Below are positions 36-30,159 of a stretch of DNA of 33,577 nt, piece by piece. The notes under the pieces are model-generated. The model did not search any database and had not been told where the DNA came from. It worked only from the letters and a program-made list of their open reading frames with translations. How positions within the stretch are numbered: position 1 is the stretch's first letter; each line of letters begins with the position of its first letter. The DNA comes from Candidatus Onthomonas avicola (GTDB taxonomy: Bacteria; Bacillota; Clostridia; Oscillospirales; Oscillospiraceae), in contig DVJB01000054.1 in the NCBI GenBank assembly GCA_018710845.1, positions 1 through 33,577 on the forward strand, in the 5' to 3' direction. Made by a program: the position numbers and the translations under genes.

Positions 36-710
36 ATGTTTCAAATTCTGCTTGTGGAAGATGACCGGGAGCTGAACCGGACGGTCTGTTCCTATCTGAA
101 TCAGAACAGCTATCAGGTGACCGGCTGCCTGAATGTCAACGAGGCCTACGACGCGATGTACGGCGGCACCCCCTTTGACCTGATTATCTCCGATATCATG
201 ATGCCGGGGGTGGACGGCTTCGAGTTTGCCAGGACGGTCCGGGAACAGAACCAGGAGATTCCGATCCTGTTCATGCCCGCGCGGGACGACTTTGCGTCTA
301 AGCGGCGGGGCTTTCGCACCGGGATTGACGACTATATGGTCAAGCCGGTCAACCTGGACGAGCTGTTGCTGCGGATCGAGGCGCTGATGCGCCGCGCCCG
401 GATCGCCGCGAGCCGCCATCTCACGGTGGGGGGCCTCACGCTGGACGCGGAGGAGCGCACCGCGTATCTCAACGGGCAGGAGGTCCCCCTGACCGTGCGG
501 GAGTTCAACCTGCTCTACAAGCTGCTGTCCTATCCGCGCAAGACCTTCACCCGTTCCCAGCTGATGGACGAATTCTGGGACAGCGCGACCTCCTCCGGCC
601 CCCGGACGGTGGATGTCTATATGACCAAGCTGCGCAACAAATTTGCCGGCTGCGACGACTTTGAGATTGTCACTGTGCACGGCCTGGGCTACAAGGCGGT
701 CCTGAAATGA
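36..710 (+). CDS. OmpR-family response regulator
   Basis: DNA-binding response regulator of 224 residues. The receiver domain (about 1-118) shows the acidic pair in VEDD, the phosphoacceptor Asp53 in ISDIMMPG and Lys103 in MVKP. A winged-helix Trans_reg_C domain follows (about 128-222, ending GLGYKAVLK). It should be phosphorylated by the kinase encoded immediately downstream, whose ATG overlaps this stop (ATGA), and then bind direct repeats near target promoters. Oddity: the conserved Thr/Ser of the beta4 switch (normally LTAR) is Pro81 here (FMPAR), so the classical phosphorylation-coupled hydroxyl is missing. The start is supported by a purine-rich ribosome site (ggggagggagagag). The sequence upstream lies outside the window, so more operon members could precede it. 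Target genes are unknown; the downstream membrane proteins are the obvious candidates. Confidence 0.93.
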   Translation: MFQILLVEDDRELNRTVCSYLNQNSYQVTGCLNVNEAYDAMYGGTPFDLIISDIMMPGVDGFEFARTVREQNQEIPILFMPARDDFASKRRGFRTGIDDYMVKPVNLDELLLRIEALMRRARIAASRHLTVGGLTLDAEERTAYLNGQEVPLTVREFNLLYKLLSYPRKTFTRSQLMDEFWDSATSSGPRTVDVYMTKLRNKFAGCDDFEIVTVHGLGYKAVLK

Positions 711-1816
711 GGGCGGCGGAGAAGAGGCGGAGGGTGCGCTGGCTGTTTTCCCTCCGACGTTATCTCATCTTCTTTGCGCTGATGGCCTTTGTGATCACCT
801 GCTGTATGCTGCTTTTTCTCAACAGCGTGCTCCAGTCGACGGGGTGGGTTTTGACGCGGGACCATGTGGAGCAGGCGGCCAAGCTGACATTTGCCAACGT
901 GGTGCTGCTGAGCCTGCTGTGCACTGTGATTGACGGCATCCGGCGCAGATTTATGGTCGAGCGCCCGGTCCGGCAGATTATCCGGGCGGCGGACCGGATC
1001 ATACAGGGGGATTTCTCCGTGCGGGTTCCGCCTGTCGGCAACGCCGATGACGGGGACGGATTTGCCATCATCGCCGCGTATTTCAACCAGATGGCCGGGG
1101 AGCTCTCTGGCATTGAGACGCTGCGCACCGATTTTATCGCCAACGTCTCCCATGAGATGAAGACACCGCTGGCGGTGATTCAGAACTACGGGACGATGCT
1201 CCAACAGCCCGGCCTGCCGGAGGAGAAGCGGATCGAGTACGCCAAGGCGGTCACCGACGCCTCGCGCAGGCTGGCCAACCTGATGACCAATATCCTCAAG
1301 CTGAACCGCCTGGAAAACCAGCAGATCTATCCCGAGGCGAAGACATATGACCTGGGAGAGCAGCTGTGCGAGTGTATGCTGGCCTTTGAGGGCGCCTGGG
1401 AGGAAAAGGAGCTGGAGATCTCTGCCGATCTGGAGGAGAACGTGCTGGTCAAGACGGACGCAGAGCTGCTCTCCCTGGTGTGGAACAACCTGTTTTCCAA
1501 TGCCGTCAAGTTTACCGAGCCGCACGGCACGGTGTCGGTGTCGCTGCATGTGGAGGGCGCTGACGCGGTGGTCCGGGTGTCCGATACCGGCTGCGGCATC
1601 TCGCCGGAGGTCGGAAAGCACATGTTTGAGAAGTTCTATCAGGGAGATACCTCCCACGCGACCCAGGGCAACGGCCTGGGCCTCGCCCTGGTCAAGCGGG
1701 TGATCGACATCGTGGGCGGAGAGATCTCCGTGGAGAGCCAGGTGGGCGTGGGAAGTACCTTCACCGTGCGATTGGAGAGAAGAGAAGATGAAGCGATGGA
1801 AAAGCCTTCTGCATAG
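707..1816 (+). CDS. Sensor histidine kinase (HAMP, HisKA, HATPase)
   Basis: Membrane sensor kinase of 369 residues and partner of the preceding regulator, with a 4-base overlap. A basic N-terminus leads into TM1 (about 18-40). A very short outer loop of some 20 residues follows, then TM2 (about 60-80), a HAMP-like linker (about 80-135), a HisKA domain with His149 in NVSHEMKTPL, and a HATPase with N box NNLFSNAVKF, G1 box SDTGCGIS and G2 box GNGLGLALVK. All catalytic boxes look intact. The tiny extracytoplasmic loop resembles intramembrane-sensing kinases, which sense membrane or transporter state rather than soluble ligands; that role is an inference. Its end overlaps the next gene by 29 bases, indicating co-translation. 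Confidence 0.92.
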   Translation: MRAAEKRRRVRWLFSLRRYLIFFALMAFVITCCMLLFLNSVLQSTGWVLTRDHVEQAAKLTFANVVLLSLLCTVIDGIRRRFMVERPVRQIIRAADRIIQGDFSVRVPPVGNADDGDGFAIIAAYFNQMAGELSGIETLRTDFIANVSHEMKTPLAVIQNYGTMLQQPGLPEEKRIEYAKAVTDASRRLANLMTNILKLNRLENQQIYPEAKTYDLGEQLCECMLAFEGAWEEKELEISADLEENVLVKTDAELLSLVWNNLFSNAVKFTEPHGTVSVSLHVEGADAVVRVSDTGCGISPEVGKHMFEKFYQGDTSHATQGNGLGLALVKRVIDIVGGEISVESQVGVGSTFTVRLERREDEAMEKPSA

Positions 1817-3233: not shown

Positions 3234-4718
3234 TCAGAGGAAGGAGTAGCCCATCAGGTACTCGTCCACCTCGCGCGCGCAGCCGCGGCCCTCCGCCACA
3301 CCCCAGACGACGAGGGACTGGCCCCGGTGCATGTCGCCGGCGGTAAAGACCTTGTCCACGTTGGTGTGGTAGTGGCCCTCTTCCGTCTTCACGTTGGTGC
3401 GGGCGTTGACCTCCACCCCGAAGGCGTCGGTCACATAGGACTGGCTGCCGAGGAAGCCGGCGGCGATGAGCAGGAGCTGGCAGGGGAGAGTCTCCTCGCT
3501 GCCCTCCACTGGGACCATCCGCATCCGCCCGGTCTGCTCGTCCTTCTGGCTCTCCAGGTGGACGATGGTCACGGCGCACAGCTTGCCGTTCTCGTCGGCG
3601 TGGAACTCCTTCACCGTCGTCTGGTACAGCCGGGGATCGTGGCCGAAGACGGCGATCGCCTCCTCATGGCCGTAATCCGTCTTGCACACGCGCGGCCACT
3701 GGGGCCAGGGGTTATTGGCCGCCCGGGTGTCCGGGAGCTTGGGCATCATCTCCAGGGCGGTGATGCTCCGGCAGCCGTGGCGGATGCAGGTGCCGATGCA
3801 GTCGTTGCCGGTGTCGCCGCCGCCGACGACGATGACGTCCTTGTCCTTTGCGGAGATATACTTCCCGTCCGCCAGGCCGGAGTCGAGCAGGCTCTTGGTG
3901 TTCGCGCGCAGGAAATCCACCGCGAAGTGGATCCCCTCCGCCTCGCGGCCGGGGTTGTTCAGGTCGCGCGGATTGGACGCGCCGCAGCAGAGCACCACCG
4001 CGTCAAACTCGTCCAGCAGCTCCTGGGCGGACTTGTCCACCCCGATGTTGCAGCCGGTGACGAAGGTGACGCCCTCCTTTGTCATCAGGTCCACCCGGCG
4101 CTGGACGACCGACTTGTCCAGCTTCATATTGGGGATGCCGTACATCAGCAGTCCGCCGACTCGGTCAAACCGCTCGAAGACGGTGACCCAGTGGCCGCGG
4201 TGGTTGAGCTGGTCTGCTACGGCGAGGCCGGAGGGGCCAGACCCCACCACCGCCACGTGTTTCCCGGAGCGGACCTTGGGAATCTGCGGCTGAATCAGTC
4301 CGTTGGCAAAGCCGTACTCGATCAGAGCCAGCTCGTTGTCATGCACGGTCACCGGCTCCCCGTGCATCCCGCAGGTGCAGCCCGCCTCGCACAGGGCGGG
4401 GCAGACGCGGCCGGTGAACTCGGGGAAGTTGCTCGTCTTGCACAGTCGGGAGAGCGCGTGCTCCCAGTTGCCGCGATAGATCATGTCGTTCCACTCGGGG
4501 ATCAGATTGTGCAGCGGGCAGCCGGTATACATGCCGCCCAGCATCACCCCCGACTGGCAGAAGGGGACGCCGCAGTCCATGCAGCGCGCGCCCTGCCGCT
4601 CCCGCTCCTCCACAGAGAGGGGGGGATGAAATTCGTTGAAGTTCTTAATCCGTTCCAGGGGCTCCACCGAGGGGTTGCCCTGACGGTCATAGTCCAAAAA
4701 ACCGGTCAGCTTACCCAT
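3234..4718 (-). CDS. gltD: Glutamate synthase small subunit
   Basis: Beta subunit of NADPH-dependent glutamate synthase (GOGAT), 494 residues, the usual length. It takes electrons from NADPH through FAD and iron-sulfur clusters to the large subunit, which makes glutamate from 2-oxoglutarate and glutamine. The N-terminal region carries the cluster cysteines ([12 protein letters not shown], then TGCPLHN, and a second set [12 protein letters not shown]). The FAD-binding glycine motif is [15 protein letters not shown] and the NADPH-binding motif is [13 protein letters not shown]. The C-terminal ATGD-type flavin motif appears as [14 protein letters not shown]. It starts 15 bases after the gltB stop with AGGAGGGAGCACAAC as ribosome site, so the two subunits form one operon (gltB first). 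Confidence 0.96.
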
Positions 4719-4733: not shown

Positions 4734-7700
4734 TTAGTGCTGGTTGACGACGGCGTAAAACGCGTCGATCTCGGCCTCCTGGCGGGACATGCCCTTCTCC
4801 TCCCGCTGGGCGATGGCCTGGAGCATCCGGTTGTAATCCCGGGGCATAATCTTCTTGAAGTTGGGCAGGTAGTCGTCAAAGTGGTCCAGAATCTCCTGCC
4901 CCAGCGCAGAGCCGGTGGCCTTCACGTGACGGGTGATCAGTTCTTTGAGCTCGAGGATATCGTGCTTTTCCGTCACTGTCTCCATGGAGACCATCGCCTT
5001 GTTCACCCGCATATACAGGTCGCGCTTGCGGTCGAGCACGTAGGCGATGCCGCCGGACATGCCGGCCGCGAAGTTCTTGCCCGTCGGGCCGAGGATGACT
5101 GCCCGGCCGCCGGTCATATACTCGCAGCCGTGGTCGCCCACGCCCTCGACGACGGCAGTCGCGCCCGAGTTGCGCACGCAGAAGCGCTCGCCGGCCACGC
5201 CGCACAGATATGCCTCGCCGCCGGTGGCACCATAGAGGGCGACGTTGCCGATGAGGATGTTCTCCTCCGGGCGGAAGCGGCTGTTCTTGGGCGGGTAGAC
5301 GATGATCTTGCCGCCGGAGAGGCCCTTGCCGAGATAGTCGTTCGAGTCGCCCTCCAGCTCCAGGGTCAGTCCCTTGGGGATGAACGCGCCGAAAGACTGT
5401 CCGCCGCCGCCATGGCACTTGACGACATAGGTGTCGTCCGGCAGATTGTTGTGGTGCAGCCGGGTGATCTCCGAGCCGAAGATGGTGCCTAACGTCCGGT
5501 CGGTGGAGGTGACGTCGATCTCAATGCGCTGCGGCTTGCCCTTCTGGAGGTTCTTGCCCATCTTGGCCAGCAGGACGGACTCGTCCAGCGTCTTCTCCAG
5601 GGCGAAGTCGTAGAGGTTGGCGGGGTCAAAGTGCTGCGGGTGCTCCTTGTCTAGCCATGGGTTGTTCAGGATTCGGGAGAGGTCCACGGTGGCGGCGCGG
5701 TCGGTGACCATCTTCTCACGCACTTGGAGCAGGTCGGAGCGTCCCACCATCTCCTCGACGGTGCGGATGCCGAGCTTGGCCATGATCTCGCGCAGCTCCT
5801 GGGCGATATAGCGCATGTAGTTTTCCACATACTCGGGCTTGCCGATAAAGCGCTTGCGCAGCTCGGGATTCTGGGTGGCGATGCCCATCGGGCAGGTGTC
5901 CAGGTTGCACACCCGCATCATCACGCAGCCCATGGCGACCATCGGGCCGGTGCCAAAGCCGAACTCCTCCGCGCCCAGCAGGCAGGCAATCGCCACGTCG
6001 CGGCCGGTCATCAGCTTGGAGTCCGCCTCGATGACGATGCGCGAGCGCAGGTCATTCTGAATCAGAGTCTGATGCGTCTCCGCCACGCCCAGCTCCCAGG
6101 GGAGGCCGGCGTTGTGGATGGAGCTCTTGGGCGCGGCGCCCGAGCCGCCGTCGTAGCCGGAGATGAGCACCACCTGGGCGCCCGCCTTGGCCACGCCTGC
6201 GGCGATGGTACCCACGCCCGCCTCCGAGACCAGCTTGACGTTGATGCGGGCCCTCCGGTTGGCGTTCTTCAGGTCGAAGATGAGCTGGGCCAAGTCCTCG
6301 ATGGAGTAGATGTCGTGGTGCGGCGGGGGAGAGATCAGCGGCACGCCGGGGGTAGAGTAGCGCGTCTTGGCCACCCAGGGATAGACCTTCGCGCCGGGCA
6401 GGTGACCGCCCTCGCCGGGCTTTGCGCCCTGCGCCATCTTGATCTGAATCTCGTTGGCGCTCATGAGGTATTCGCTGGTGACGCCGAAGCGGGCGGAGGC
6501 CACCTGCTTAATCTGGCTGTTGCGCTCGGTGCCGTAGCGCTCGGGCGGCTCGCCGCCCTCGCCGGTGTTGGACTTGCCGCCCAGGCGGTTCATGGCAATG
6601 GCCATGCACTCATGCGCCTCGGCGGAGAGACACCCGTAGCTCATCGCCGCGGTCTTGAAGCGCTTGACGATGGACTCGACCGGCTCCACCTCCTCGATCG
6701 GGATGCCGCCGTCCTCCGCCCAGCGGAAGGCCATCAGGCCGCGCAGGGTGTGCGGCTTGTTCTCGTCGTCCACGGCGGCGGAGTACTGCTTGAAGATGGA
6801 GTAGTCCGAGTTCCAGAGCGACTGCTGCAGCAAGCTGATGGTCTTGGGGTTGTAGAGGTGGTCTTCCGCCTCGTCGCCGGCGCGGGCCTTGTGGATGCCG
6901 GTGGAGTCGAGCGAGGTGTCCGTGGTCAGTCCGAGCGGGTCAAAGGCGTGGTTGTGCCGCCACTCCACCACGTCGTCGATCTCCTTGAGGCCGATACCGC
7001 CCACACGAGAGATCGTGTTGGTGAAATACTTCTCAATCACGTCCGGATGGATGCCGACCGCCTCAAAGATCTGCGCCGACTGATAGGACTGAAGGGTGGA
7101 GATGCCCATCTTGGAGGCGATCTTCACGATGCCGTTGAGGATCGCGCGGTTGTAGTCGTCCACAGCGGCGGAGTACTCCTTGTCCAGCAGGTTCTTGTCG
7201 ATCAGCTCGCCGATGCACTCCTGGGCGAGGTAGGGGTTGATCGCCGCCGCGCCGTAGCCGAGCAGGGTGGCGAAGTGGTGCACCTCGCGCGGCTCGGCCG
7301 ACTCGAGGATGATAGAGATCGCCGTGCGCTTGCGCGTGCGGATCTGGTACTGCTCCAGCGCGGAGACGGCGAGCAGGGAGGGGATGGCCACGTGGTTTTC
7401 ATCCACACCGCGGTCGGAGAGGATGATGATATTCGCGCCATTGCGGTAGGCGCGGTCCACCGAGACGAACATCCGGTCGATTGCCCGCTCCAGCGAGGTG
7501 TTCTTGTAGTAGAGCAGGGAGACTGTCTCACAGCGGAAGCCGGGAATTTTCATGTTCCGGATCTTCATCAGGTCGATGCTGGTGAGAATGGGATTGCGGA
7601 TGTGCAGCACCTTGCAGTTTTCCGCCCGATCCTCGAGCAGATTGCCCTCGCGGCCGAGATAGACGGAGGTGTCGGTGACGATCTCCTCGCGGATTGCGTC

Positions 7701-9290
7701 GATCGGTGGGTTGGTCACCTGGGCAAAGAGCTGCTTAAAGTAGTTAAACAGCGGCTGATGCTTCTCCGAGAGCACGGCGAGCGGGATGTCCACGCCCATG
7801 GCGGCGGTGGGCTCCGAGCCGGTCTGCGCCATCTGGAGGATGGAGTTCTTGACCTCCTCGTAAGTGTAGCCAAAGGCCTTGTAGAGCCTGTCGCGCTGCT
7901 CCTGGGTGTAGCTGTCCACCTTGTGGTTGGGAATCTTCAGGTCCTTGAGCTCCACCAGATTCATATCCAGCCACTCACCGTAAGGCTCGCGGGCCGCGTA
8001 GCCCTCCTTGAGCTCGTCGTCGGTGATTAGGCGGCCGGCGACAGTGTCCACCAGCAGCATCTTACCCGGCTGCAGGCGGGACTTCTGGACGATTTTCTCC
8101 GGCGGGATATCGAGCACGCCCACCTCAGAGGCGAGGATGAGCTGGTCGTCGTCGGTAATATAGTAGCGAGAGGGGCGCAGGCCGTTGCGGTCGAGCACGG
8201 CGCCCACGCAGTCGCCGTCAGAGAAGAGGATAGAGGCCGGGCCGTCCCACGGCTCCATCATGGTGGCGTAGTAGCGGTACATATCCCGCTTGGCGCGCGA
8301 CATATTCTTGTCGTTCATCCACGGCTCGGGAATGCAGAGCATCACCGCCATCGGCAGGTCGATGCCGTTCATCACGAGGAACTCCAGCGTGTTGTCCAGC
8401 CGGGCGGAGTCCGAGCCGGAGGGATTGATGACGGGATAGACCTTGTCCAGGTCATCTCCGCTCATAATCCGGGAGGTCATCGTCTCCTCGCGGGCGAGCA
8501 TGCGGTCCACATTGCCGCGGATGGTGTTGATCTCACCGTTGTGGAGGATGAAGCGGTTGGGGTGCGCGCGCTCCCAGCTCGGATTCGTGTTAGTGGAAAA
8601 GCGGGAGTGGACCATTGCGATGGCGGACTCATAGTCGTGATCCTGCAGATCGCAGTAAAACTCGCGCAGCTCGGAGACGAGGAACATGCCCTTGTAGACG
8701 ATCGTCCGGCTGGAGCAGGAGGCAACGTAGGTGTTGTCATTGGACTGCTCAAAGACCCGGCGGGCGATATAGAGCTTGCGGTCAAAGGGCAGTCCGCGCT
8801 CCACTTTTTCCGGGCGGCGGACAAAGGCCTGCTCGATATAGGGCATGCACGCGCGCGCCTTCTGCCCGAGGATCTCCGGCCGGACGGGTACCGTGCGCCA
8901 GCCGAGCAGCTCCATCCCTTCCTTTTCCACAATGATCTCGAACATCTTCTTGGCCTGCCCGCGGGCGAGCGTGTTCTGGGGGAAGAAGAACATGCCGATG
9001 CCGTAATCCCGCTCTCCGCCCAGCGCGATGCCGGCCTGAGCGGCCGCTTTGGAAAAGAATTTATGACTGATCTGCAGCATAATGCCCACGCCGTCACCGG
9101 TCTTGCCCTCCGCGTCCTTGCCGGCGCGGTGCTCCAGCTTTTCGACGATCTTCAGCGCGTTGTCCACTGTGGCGTAGGTCTTGCGGCCCTTGATATCCAC
9201 CACGCCGCCGATGCCGCAGGCATCATGCTCTAACCGGGGGTCATATAATCCCTGTGCAGGGATCGTGGTCTCAGTCCTGTTCGGTTGCAT
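4734..9290 (-). CDS. gltB: Glutamate synthase large subunit
   Basis: Alpha subunit of GOGAT, 1518 residues. Domain order: class II glutamine amidotransferase with the catalytic Cys25 (DACGIGG) after a 24-residue propeptide that must be removed; a central linker domain (about 470-760); the FMN-binding synthase barrel (about 830-1200) with the 3Fe-4S cysteines in GCVMMRVCNLDTC (about 1120-1135); and the C-terminal GXGXG beta-helix domain (about 1270-1460). The frame stays open for 41 more codons upstream, but ATG 9290 is preferred because AAAGGGGAAAATTAAC precedes it and the propeptide then has normal length. It forms an operon with gltD. The roughly 200-base leader is highly structured and separated from dapL by a terminator, so this gene probably has its own promoter. 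Confidence 0.96.
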   Translation of the reverse strand: MQPNRTETTIPAQGLYDPRLEHDACGIGGVVDIKGRKTYATVDNALKIVEKLEHRAGKDAEGKTGDGVGIMLQISHKFFSKAAAQAGIALGGERDYGIGMFFFPQNTLARGQAKKMFEIIVEKEGMELLGWRTVPVRPEILGQKARACMPYIEQAFVRRPEKVERGLPFDRKLYIARRVFEQSNDNTYVASCSSRTIVYKGMFLVSELREFYCDLQDHDYESAIAMVHSRFSTNTNPSWERAHPNRFILHNGEINTIRGNVDRMLAREETMTSRIMSGDDLDKVYPVINPSGSDSARLDNTLEFLVMNGIDLPMAVMLCIPEPWMNDKNMSRAKRDMYRYYATMMEPWDGPASILFSDGDCVGAVLDRNGLRPSRYYITDDDQLILASEVGVLDIPPEKIVQKSRLQPGKMLLVDTVAGRLITDDELKEGYAAREPYGEWLDMNLVELKDLKIPNHKVDSYTQEQRDRLYKAFGYTYEEVKNSILQMAQTGSEPTAAMGVDIPLAVLSEKHQPLFNYFKQLFAQVTNPPIDAIREEIVTDTSVYLGREGNLLEDRAENCKVLHIRNPILTSIDLMKIRNMKIPGFRCETVSLLYYKNTSLERAIDRMFVSVDRAYRNGANIIILSDRGVDENHVAIPSLLAVSALEQYQIRTRKRTAISIILESAEPREVHHFATLLGYGAAAINPYLAQECIGELIDKNLLDKEYSAAVDDYNRAILNGIVKIASKMGISTLQSYQSAQIFEAVGIHPDVIEKYFTNTISRVGGIGLKEIDDVVEWRHNHAFDPLGLTTDTSLDSTGIHKARAGDEAEDHLYNPKTISLLQQSLWNSDYSIFKQYSAAVDDENKPHTLRGLMAFRWAEDGGIPIEEVEPVESIVKRFKTAAMSYGCLSAEAHECMAIAMNRLGGKSNTGEGGEPPERYGTERNSQIKQVASARFGVTSEYLMSANEIQIKMAQGAKPGEGGHLPGAKVYPWVAKTRYSTPGVPLISPPPHHDIYSIEDLAQLIFDLKNANRRARINVKLVSEAGVGTIAAGVAKAGAQVVLISGYDGGSGAAPKSSIHNAGLPWELGVAETHQTLIQNDLRSRIVIEADSKLMTGRDVAIACLLGAEEFGFGTGPMVAMGCVMMRVCNLDTCPMGIATQNPELRKRFIGKPEYVENYMRYIAQELREIMAKLGIRTVEEMVGRSDLLQVREKMVTDRAATVDLSRILNNPWLDKEHPQHFDPANLYDFALEKTLDESVLLAKMGKNLQKGKPQRIEIDVTSTDRTLGTIFGSEITRLHHNNLPDDTYVVKCHGGGGQSFGAFIPKGLTLELEGDSNDYLGKGLSGGKIIVYPPKNSRFRPEENILIGNVALYGATGGEAYLCGVAGERFCVRNSGATAVVEGVGDHGCEYMTGGRAVILGPTGKNFAAGMSGGIAYVLDRKRDLYMRVNKAMVSMETVTEKHDILELKELITRHVKATGSALGQEILDHFDDYLPNFKKIMPRDYNRMLQAIAQREEKGMSRQEAEIDAFYAVVNQH

Positions 9291-9473
9291 GTTAATTTTC
9301 CCCTTTCCGGTCCCGCTTCTGCGGGACGCTTGCGGTAATCGGACACCAGGTGCCCTGATAAGCACAAGACACCCCAATGGTTGCTGAAAATGTGCGCGAA
9401 CAACCGCGCGCATTTCAGAGCAGTCTCCCCATTGAGGCGTCTCATGAAATGAGTGTATGGATCTGTTTTATGG
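9291..9473 (-). promoter_or_regulatory. Structured leader of gltBD with candidate ANTAR hexaloop
   Basis: Non-coding leader between the dapL terminator and gltB. In transcript order it contains a palindrome CTCAT-ttc-ATGAG (9441-9453) and then a small hairpin CUC-AAUGGG-GAG (9425-9436) with a six-base loop having A at 1 and G at 4. A long hairpin (9384-9418) follows with a GCGCG/CGCGC core, its own six-base loop GUUGUU and an AUUUUC stretch in the 3' arm. After that come CCAUUG (9375-9380), which can pair back to CAAUGG of the small hairpin, and a GTCCCGC-agaa-GCGGGAC hairpin just before the ribosome site. No convincing -35/-10 pair is visible. I infer RNA-level control; ANTAR recognition is a hypothesis. 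Confidence 0.45.
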
Positions 9474-11358: not shown

Positions 11359-12687
<1,329 letters not shown>

Positions 12688-12795
12688 AACTGTGTCCTCC
12701 AGTCGTGCAGGACGCGCCAGGCCGGGCCGGCCGCGCGCCTGTATGGTGTGCGCGCAAGCGGCAGACAGCCGCTGCCGGCGGCGCGATACGTCAGA

Positions 12796-12942: not shown

Positions 12943-12978
12943 TTGCAAATCAGGGGAGAATAGTGTATGCTGAACATG
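12943..12978 (+). promoter_or_regulatory. Promoter of glnN
   Basis: TTGCAA (12943-12948), a 17-base spacer and TATGCT (12966-12971), with an A-tract just upstream (aaaaaaa). The predicted transcript begins near 12978 and has a leader of about 200 bases before the glnN start. It is divergent from the glnA promoter 110 bases away. Confidence 0.75.
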
Positions 12979-13014
12979 TCAAGCAAAGCGCCGCGGGCGT
13001 GACTCAAAATGAAA

Positions 13015-13090
13015 CAGTCAGAGATGGTAGAGGTGACAATGGAGTCCCCCCTGTGTGATGGGTTGGACGCATTGTCTCTTTTCATTTTTT
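13015..13090 (+). promoter_or_regulatory. Candidate antitermination switch in the glnN leader
   Basis: Terminator-like stem: GACAATG (13035-13041) pairs with CATTGTC (13070-13076) and GTCC (13044-13047) with GGAC (13065-13068), followed by a T-rich tail to 13090. Competing with it is a small hairpin GG(u)GAC-AAUGGA-GUC(c)CC (13032-13049) with a six-base loop, A at 1 and G at 4. Just upstream is a weaker hairpin, CAGUC-AGAGAU-GGUAG (13015-13030), with a loop of the same pattern. Two adjacent six-base loops with the second overlapping the terminator is the architecture recognised by ANTAR antiterminators. The first stem has G-U pairs and a mismatch, so this stays a candidate. Confidence 0.45.
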
Positions 13091-13177
13091 GACTGCCATG
13101 GGGCCCGGACAAATTGAAAGCCTGTATTCCGGTCTCTGATGCTCTGACAGCCAGCACAAGGAAAGGGTTGAGGCAAG

Positions 13178-15271
<2,094 letters not shown>

Positions 15272-28474: not shown

Positions 28475-28510
28475 TAAACTCTTTATAACAGAGACAGGCA
28501 CCGATGTCAA
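28475..28510 (-). promoter_or_regulatory. Promoter of the ABC-F gene
   Basis: On the minus strand a perfect TTGACA (28505-28510), a 17-base spacer and TATAAA (28482-28487). The -35 overlaps the stop codon of the lactate permease gene (cacTTGACA). The leader to the ABC-F start is about 230 bases. Confidence 0.88.
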
Positions 28511-30159
28511 GTGAACATGGCAAAAAAGGCGACGATGAGCACCAGCGACACATAGATGACCACTGGAATCAGGTTGGTGGAGATGATCTCCCCCTCGTGG
28601 CCGTTCGCGCCGGTGGTGGCGGAGACGGAGACGACGTTGTTGATGCAGATCATATTGCCGATCGCGCCGCCTGCGGTCTGCAAGGCACAGGTATAGATCG
28701 GGTTGACACCGATCAGTAGCGCCGTGTTGAACTGCAGGGAGGTGAACATCACGCACGAGACGGTGCACGAGCCGGAGATGAACGCTCCCAGCACGCCGAT
28801 GAACGGAGAGATGATGGGAAAGGCCGGGCCGGTCAGGTCAGCCAGCGCCTGTGCCGCAACGAGCAGCATGCTGTCCATGCCGCTGTTGTTCACACCCGAG
28901 TTCATCATGATCTGCACCATCGTCACGCCGAAGACGAGCGCAGAGAACACTTTGAGCAGCTGAAAGAAAGAACCGAGGCAGACCCGGCCTACATCCTTCA
29001 CGCCGACACCGCTCAGAAGGCCGACCAGGATGGCAAAGACGATAAACGGCAGGATGCCGGCACTCCAGAGCGGCTGAAAGGAGTAGGTGCACGACTCCAC
29101 GCCGAGCAGACTGTCCCAGCCGACGCTCCACGATTGCAGCAGCGCGCGCAGCCCGAAGACGGGCACACGGCTCACGAGCAGGAACAGGCCGATGCACCCA
29201 TACGGAATCCAGCCCTGCCAGGCGGGCATGGCCTTCCGGTCCGTGTTGAAAATGGCCCGGTTTTCCAGCGGCAAGTCATTGGGAAAGCGCCAGACATGCT
29301 TGGGAATCAGGAACCCGCGGGAGGCGGCGGCCACCGATACCACCAGTCCGAACACCGAGCCGGCGATGGAGGGGAATTCGTGCCCGAAAAGGACGGAGAT
29401 GATGTAGTAGGGGGCGCTGAAGGCCAGACCGGTAAACAGGCCGAAGGGGATGATCTCGACAAAGTCGCGCACGCGCCGCCCTTTCTCCCCATAGCGGAAG
29501 AGAAAGACGCCCATGAGCAGCAGCGGAACCACAACACCGCCCACCCCCAGAAAGAGAGTGGTCATCTCGGTGCTCTCCTGGAGAAATTCCTCATAGCTCA
29601 GACCGTATTGGGAGACGTACTGCGCGTTGCCTGTCAGTTCGCTGGAAATGGAGGAGACCATCGCTGTGATGGGCGCGCCCGCGGCGGCAAAGGGTACCGG
29701 TGTGGAGTTGGCGATCAGACAGACAATGCATGCCGCCACCGGCGGGAAGCCGAGCGCGACCAGCAGCGGGGCAGCCAGGGCGGCCGGGGTGCCGTAGCCG
29801 GCGGTCCCCTCGATGAAGGCGCCGAAAAGCCAGGCAATCAAAATCGCCTGTACCCGCCGGTCCGGGCTGACGCGGGAAAAGCTGCGCTGGATGGCCTCCA
29901 TGTGCCCCGTGCGGCGCAGCATATTCAGAAAGAGAATCGCGCCGAAGATGATGAAAAACACCTCCAGCGCCTTGCACACACCCTGCACGCCAAAGGCAGC
30001 CAGGGCGGCCGGCTCCATCTGCCAGACGAAGGCTGCCAGCACGACCGTCAACGCCAGCGAGAGCAGTAGAGCCTTTGGCGCGGAGAGCTGAATGCGGCGG
30101 ATCACCATAACCGCAAGGGCCAGCAGGATGGGAGAGAGGGACAAAACGGCGTATAGCAT
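28507..30159 (-). CDS. lldP: L-lactate permease family transporter
   Basis: LctP/LldP family secondary transporter of 550 residues with about 13 hydrophobic helices; it imports lactate (or glycolate) with protons. Family motifs are [68 protein letters not shown] and [21 protein letters not shown] near the C-terminus. The start is ATG 30159 with GGAGG nine bases before. It is preceded by its own strong promoter. In a butyrate former with a CoA-transferase nearby, uptake of lactate as carbon source is a reasonable reading, but no lactate dehydrogenase gene is in the window, so the substrate rests on family resemblance. Confidence 0.9.

Follow-up and report, generated by a model that had tools for sequence, protein, structure and literature searches.

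The leader of glnN, the gene for a type III glutamine synthetase (GSIII) in Candidatus Onthomonas avicola, raises the question of whether transcription into the gene is decided by a protein of the ANTAR family and, if so, by how many RNA hairpins. In the window, that is, the whole stretch of 33,577 nucleotides that was analysed (contig DVJB01000054.1 of assembly GCA_018710845.1), the initial annotation had proposed two adjacent hexaloop hairpins before glnN, here called P1 and P2, as in the targets of EutV and NasR. According to passages of Ramesh et al. 2012 (PMC3369931), P1 and P2 are both needed in the E. faecalis eut leaders, which are controlled by EutV/EutW; induction is lowered by deletion of P1 or by change of any of four loop bases, the linker between the two stems measures 5-12 nt, and mutational work on eutP indicates that the C-G closing pair matters. 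The same passages mention previously reported ANTAR sites before genes for glutamine synthase and for ammonium transporters; an association with such genes is thus not in itself new. In excerpts of a paper on the EutV-RNA structure (PMC8934654), the minimal ANTAR binding motif is given as one hexaloop, two being kept for antitermination; function from a single hexaloop is raised there as a possibility, and mycobacterial sites are said not always to obey the dual motif. No description of antitermination by a single hexaloop was found in the open-access literature, within which that paper, in the portions available, was the only one found to combine the term "single hexaloop" with ANTAR.

As listed in Table 1, GSIII is encoded divergently from a minus-strand run that comprises glnA, the ANTAR gene and gltBD, and that also includes an aminotransferase gene. 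The ANTAR gene lies where the initial annotation had placed it, some 2 kb from the leader and adjoining the divergent type I glnA. The window additionally encodes a response regulator/histidine kinase pair (36-1816, plus strand) and an L-lactate permease (28507-30159, minus strand).

Table 1. Genes and leader elements of the glnN locus, in window coordinates
Feature	Position	Strand	Basis
Type III glutamine synthetase (GSIII, glnN), gene presumed regulated	13178..15271	+	GSIII_N, Gln-synt_C and Gln-synt_C-ter matches
ANTAR protein with degenerate receiver domain, 176 aa	10767..11297	-	sole ANTAR match in genome
Type I glutamine synthetase (glnA), preceding the ANTAR gene within the divergent run	11359..12690	-	domain match
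Glutamate synthase large-subunit-like protein	4734-9413	-	same minus-strand run
Glutamate synthase small-subunit-like protein	3234-4718	-	same minus-strand run
Predicted glnN promoter, TTGCAA, 17-nt spacer, TATGCT	12943..12971	+	sequence; scripted score 8
P1 as initially annotated, loop AGAGAU at 13020-13025	13015..13030	+	unsupported
P2, candidate antiterminator hairpin, hexaloop AAUGGA at 13038-13043	13032..13049	+	sequence, conservation, fold energy
P2 core stem	13035-13037/13044-13046	+	A1, G4 and G5 in loop, C-G closing
Terminator hairpin, left arm contains P2	13030..13081	+	-22.1 kcal/mol
U-rich tail, expected termination site	13079..13090	+	sequence

The glnN RNA is predicted to start at about 12978, from a promoter whose score falls below the 8.5 taken here as good. 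Both this promoter and the terminator went unlisted in a consensus promoter/terminator scan of the window, the terminator because the loop limit of that scan is 8 nt. The two loops have the letters and positions first claimed for them (AGAGAT and AATGGA in the DNA), each with A at its first and G at its fourth position (A1/G4). The terminator-like stem with its T-rich tail is likewise borne out: the fold has a z-score of -3.1 and its energy is equalled by 1 of 200 shuffles, the tail running to about 13090. P2 alone folds at -3.4 kcal/mol as drawn and at -4.3 kcal/mol in its best form. Because P2 sits inside the left arm of the terminator, the two structures are mutually exclusive, as had been proposed. 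By eye, no A1/G4 hexaloop was seen in the window's own glnA leader.

P2 and the terminator are real and conserved. Among the 30 readable orthologous GSIII leaders of the genus (G001 and G002 gave none), a C-closed A1/G4 hexaloop stands at the equivalent place in 26, those without it being G010, G011, G012 and the G024 orthologue. An ANTAR match is present in 26 of the 32 genus genomes, and P2 accompanies it in 25 of the 26 ANTAR-bearing genomes with a readable leader, as against one of the four that lack an ANTAR match. In G024, the two ANTAR genes neighbour two further copies of GSIII, with the hexaloops ACCGAG and ACCGAU in their leaders. A good P2-terminator element (G006:C131:2404-2452, L059; E 4.6e-9) was also observed in a genome that is 93% complete and gave no ANTAR match; there the regulator may have been lost or left unassembled, or the genome may be an exception.

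When 20 distinct P2-terminator segments are aligned, standard pairs occupy 88% of cells in the terminator helix and 95% in P2, and both levels exceed shuffled and slid controls; the exchanges comprise one G-C/C-G set in P2 and A-U/G-C in the terminator. The closing C-G pair, A1, G4 and G5 are invariant across these segments. Moreover, the left arm is constant and its terminator partner variable, a pattern to be expected of a left side that is read by a protein. The closing pair is C-G in all 51 distinct P2 hairpins, followed by A-U in 23, G-U in 17 and G-C in 11. A model built from the 20 leaders (R1) gives the window copy 57.6 bits (E 7e-12), a score that follows from the way the model was made, the window being one of its seeds; among the 150 of 1146 first-look candidates that were scored, no further match at E<=1 was found in the same genome. 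Secondary R1 matches in the genus consist of some single-hexaloop elements before a DUF2812-like gene and of others that are plain terminators. Single-hexaloop modules with promoters were noted some 200-320 nt before a weakly DUF2812-like gene at L243, L244, L245 and L276, the similarity lying below the Pfam cut-off and having been scanned for L276 only. The simple pattern GRCAANGGNGTC gave 46 matches in the window's genome against 16 for its reversed control, and these were mostly uninformative.

The ANTAR protein can be aligned over its whole length with Rv1626 and EutV, and in all 25 genus genomes compared its gene is found 2.1-2.3 kb upstream of GSIII. At the position of the EutV phospho-acceptor aspartate, the window protein possesses a glycine. 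Across 26 genus ANTAR proteins, a comparison that leaves out two G013 fragments, this column holds Gly in 24 and Asn in 2, and the column of the conserved lysine holds Ala in 23, Ser in 1 and Arg in 2. By a mapping made here from the alignment with EutV, the RNA-contact residues Lys149 and Glu160 are kept in 26 of 26, Tyr164 is replaced by His in 26 of 26, and Arg142 is variable. These residues identify the protein, as judged from its alignment, as one of pseudo-receiver type. With the phospho-residues lost, a kinase is unlikely to phosphorylate it, so that the signal must come from a partner or a ligand; the product of the adjacent glnA is a candidate for this role, by position only.

Beyond the genus, the loop signature was followed in 103 GSIII leaders from the genomes of 98 relatives, 77 of them from ANTAR-bearing and 26 from ANTAR-less genomes. 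The scan was blind to loop letters and collected hexaloop hairpins of at least 4 bp that lie in the left part of hairpins anchored at a U-tract. In the ANTAR-bearing genomes, A1/G4 accounts for 60 of 150 such hairpins (both genus P1s included), and the next of the 16 classes for 11; in the ANTAR-less genomes it accounts for 4 of 33. At least one A1/G4 loop is present in 50 of the 77 leaders from ANTAR-bearing genomes versus 3 of the 26 others (Fisher p 2e-6, a guide only, since the leaders are related). Three features that were not selected for also set the A1/G4 loops apart from the other 90: a C-G closing pair (58/60 versus 25/90), A2 (54/60 versus 20/90) and G5 (51/60 versus 26/90). The scan detected no A1/G4 module in 27 of the 77 leaders; as seen by eye, several of the GSIII genes concerned follow immediately on another coding region or represent second copies.

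In a further set, of named loci from another scan, 76 of 80 loci were scanned, L133, L139, L146 and L161 having little or no upstream sequence. A1/G4 makes up 31 of the 100 hexaloops in these 76 leaders and occurs in 27 of them, of which 22 were kept, including those of Acididesulfobacillus acetoxydans, Sarcina ventriculi, Claveliimonas monacensis and a Spirochaetaceae bin. All 22 kept genomes have one ANTAR match, and ANTAR was also found in 7 of 8 chosen module-less genomes, so the named set speaks for co-presence and not for discrimination. Curation, which yielded 74 modules, removed by eye L083, L089, L090, L107 and L126 from the named set and, from the 103-leader scan, the A1/G4 hits in L068, L174, L189 and L200, the P1s of the window and G025, and second tandem copies; L007, L012 and L071, missed by the scan, were added by eye.

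An ammonium-transporter (amt) leader of the same genome provides a second element. The best own-genome match of an order-wide model (R2), among the 88 of 594 candidates scored, is G000:C4:28549-28597 on the minus strand (L280), with an E of 0.002, a weak score. Its layout is a TTGACA-17-TATACT promoter, the hairpin CAGGC[AAAGGC]GCC and a terminator, with an ammonium transporter (Pfam PF00909) 84 nt downstream. Here the hexaloop lies at the 5' end of the leader, leaving no room for P1, and as the genome has a single ANTAR gene, it can be argued that the protein uses single hexaloops. A C-closed A1/G4 hexaloop of at least 3 bp is present in 22 of 26 genus amt leaders, and the same loose rule finds A1/A4 in 15 and A1/C4 in 13 of them; since other A1 classes are so common, this count is weaker than that for GSIII, and the case is carried by the overlap with the terminator and the position near the promoter. 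The amt leaders of the ANTAR-less G001 and G002 (76% and 61% complete) also carry hexaloops. Further R2 matches with an intact hexaloop precede ammonium transporters at L256, L263, L269 and L284 (by Pfam) and at L260 (by eye), an amino-acid-type ABC ATPase (L268), a periplasmic binding protein (L262) and an ATP-grasp protein (L279). Where the hexaloop of an R2 match was not intact (e.g. L257, L259, L266, L271, L281 and L285), the match was judged to be a plain terminator.

Read across these sequences, what is conserved is a single A1/G4 hexaloop for each terminator. A good promoter match is present in 50 of the 74 curated modules, and in 34 of these 50 the base of the hairpin is less than 17 nt from the predicted RNA start, 17 nt being the minimum room estimated here for a 3-bp P1 and a 5-nt linker. 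These leaders thus have no room for a recruiting P1; in L188, L196, L184, L186 and L193 the distance is 1-2 nt. The genus leaders are all of a longer type (about 46-71 nt in most), exceeding those elsewhere by 45-70 nt, and may contain a recognition element upstream that has escaped notice. Eight leaders (L168, L171, L172, L180, L187, L188, L193 and L196) bear tandem modules in which every unit has a terminator of its own, the loops being 63-81 nt apart (169 nt in L168); tandem modules also occur in L141 and L145 of the named set. At L073, L184, L186, L188, L193 and L196 the divergent gene, inspected by eye, seemingly also starts with an A1/G4 hexaloop and a terminator.

Within 13010-13096 of the window, the segment upstream of P2, initially read as P1, can pair beyond the U-tract to form an outer stem around the terminator. 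It is conceivable, though unlikely, that P2 is joined in this way by a non-hexaloop upstream element that tunes the terminator or acts after read-through, an arrangement compatible with the single-hexaloop explanation rather than exclusive of it. The outer stem is contained in the window's MFE fold, but it cannot form until the U-tract has been passed. Pairing between the 30 nt upstream of P2 and the 35 nt after the terminator is better than in shuffles in 14 of a set of 15 genus leaders that includes the window, yet with z-scores from -0.3 to -4.9 (strongest in G020, G028 and G017), of which only some are strong, against a control of mononucleotide shuffling.

The canonical arrangement of EutV and NasR, in which AGAGAU of P1 would recruit the protein and AAUGGA of P2 would antiterminate, is improbable. 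P1 shares A1 and G4 with P2 and is C-G-closed as in eutP, but its remaining two pairs are G-U and U-G, and the U-G stands at the second position, where all 51 distinct P2 hairpins have a purine-pyrimidine pair. Its spacing from P2, 6 nt if P1 is taken as 3 bp, would fall within the E. faecalis range, which counts only if P1 is real, and P1 itself is unsupported: its energy is +5.9 kcal/mol with the outer C-G pair and +4.2 kcal/mol in the 3-bp form, RNAfold leaves it open, and a P1-like hairpin arises in 11% of shuffles of the window's own 45 upstream nucleotides. A search of the 45 nt upstream of P2 in the 26 P2-bearing genus leaders (A1/G4 hexaloop, at least 3 bp) found two, versus 2.2 expected from shuffles, and these two, the window and its sister G025, are identical in that stretch. 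P1 is therefore at chance level, the dual hexaloop was rejected across the genus, and the amt element of the same genome has no room for P1. An A1/G4 hexaloop in the apical loop of the terminator (AGAGAG or AAAGAG) was also considered as a second site and dropped, as it was seen in 4 of the 29 leaders compared and can coexist with the terminator.

Of the switch initially annotated, then, the second hairpin and the conservation of its A..G loop stand, and the first hairpin, kept only in the window and G025, does not. ANTAR control of GSIII antitermination is nevertheless well supported at the level of sequence, by the exclusive P2 and terminator, by synteny and by the A1/G4 enrichment. That the leader is instead an ordinary attenuator or one otherwise controlled (by another RNA-binding protein, as a riboswitch or as a plain terminator), its ANTAR link being incidental, is very improbable: an element does occur in G006, where no ANTAR gene was detected, and the tie to ANTAR is an indirect one, but the loop signature, closing pair and gene context fit the ANTAR consensus, and Rfam gave no match at gathering threshold in the window, none at E<=1 in the loci of ten relatives, and in the leader one to mir-1197, far below the cut-off (27.2 bits versus 80) and judged spurious.

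Together, these observations favour, with a probability of roughly 0.72, a NitR-like, phosphorylation-independent ANTAR protein that antiterminates nitrogen genes via single hexaloops, the glnN leader being a one-hairpin attenuator; at its start, the glnN mRNA would probably form a single small hairpin, to be bound by a protein, on which the choice between termination and read-through depends. When nitrogen is plentiful, 13030-13047 would pair with 13065-13081, and RNA polymerase would stop at the U-tract, around 13085-13090. Under nitrogen shortage, the ANTAR protein would be activated through its pseudo-receiver by a signal other than phosphorylation, bind the AAUGGA hexaloop as it emerges and hold GAC/GUC closed. 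Clamping of P2 would keep the left arm from AUUGUC, so that transcription would run into glnN, and the same protein would act likewise on the 5'-terminal hexaloop of the amt leader. The direction of this response, activation on nitrogen limitation, is taken from the precedent of NitR.

More broadly, it seems rather likely that single hexaloops, formed within a few nucleotides of the RNA 5' end, serve the ANTAR proteins of Clostridia, and of at least one Spirochaetaceae bin (L145), in the antitermination of operons for nitrogen assimilation (those of GSIII and of ammonium transporters, and probably further genes for nitrogen uptake). Every such hexaloop would have a terminator of its own, with some modules standing in tandem, and the protein would act independently of phosphorylation, perhaps reading glutamine synthetase or another adjacently encoded partner. 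If so, the two-hexaloop requirement would be one solution among several, and these leaders would be candidate natural single-hexaloop antiterminators, since a recruiting P1 does not fit where the hairpin begins 1-10 nt after the start of the RNA. In many anaerobic gut bacteria, the central route of ammonium assimilation would be placed under an RNA switch read by a protein that is probably not phosphorylatable. Covariance searches requiring two hairpins would tend to miss such elements, and the single-hexaloop leaders matched no Rfam family at the thresholds used.

Compared with known systems, the glnN element has the P2, terminator and protein domain of ANTAR regulation, and shows neither a supported P1, as in the dual family, nor the phospho-acceptor of EutV. 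With the eut leaders it shares the A1/G4 hexaloop, the C-G closing pair, the exclusion between P2 and an intrinsic terminator, and nitrogen-related genes; the closing pairs of eutP, C-G then A-U, are matched by glnN P2, whereas the second pair of the window P1 is U-G. The EutV model itself does not carry over: phosphorylation drives dimerisation there, according to the papers on the eut system cited above (PMC3369931, PMC8934654), whereas here P1 is unsupported, the protein has no phospho-acceptor aspartate, and homologous elements elsewhere have one hexaloop at the RNA 5' end. In AmiR of Pseudomonas aeruginosa, as described in part of PMC3369936, a pseudo-receiver is likewise fused to ANTAR and acts independently of phosphorylation; unlike AmiR, which is governed by the amide sensor AmiC, the present protein has no such partner identified. 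NitR of Clostridium saccharobutylicum induces GS/GOGAT genes on nitrogen limitation (a review passage in PMC6316151, citing Stutz et al. 2007), and the likeness to it rests on that passage and on gene context. As with NitR, an ANTAR protein is associated with GS/GOGAT genes, glnA, the ANTAR gene and gltBD forming one divergent run in the window, yet unlike in NitR, the presumed target is a type III glutamine synthetase on the opposite strand.
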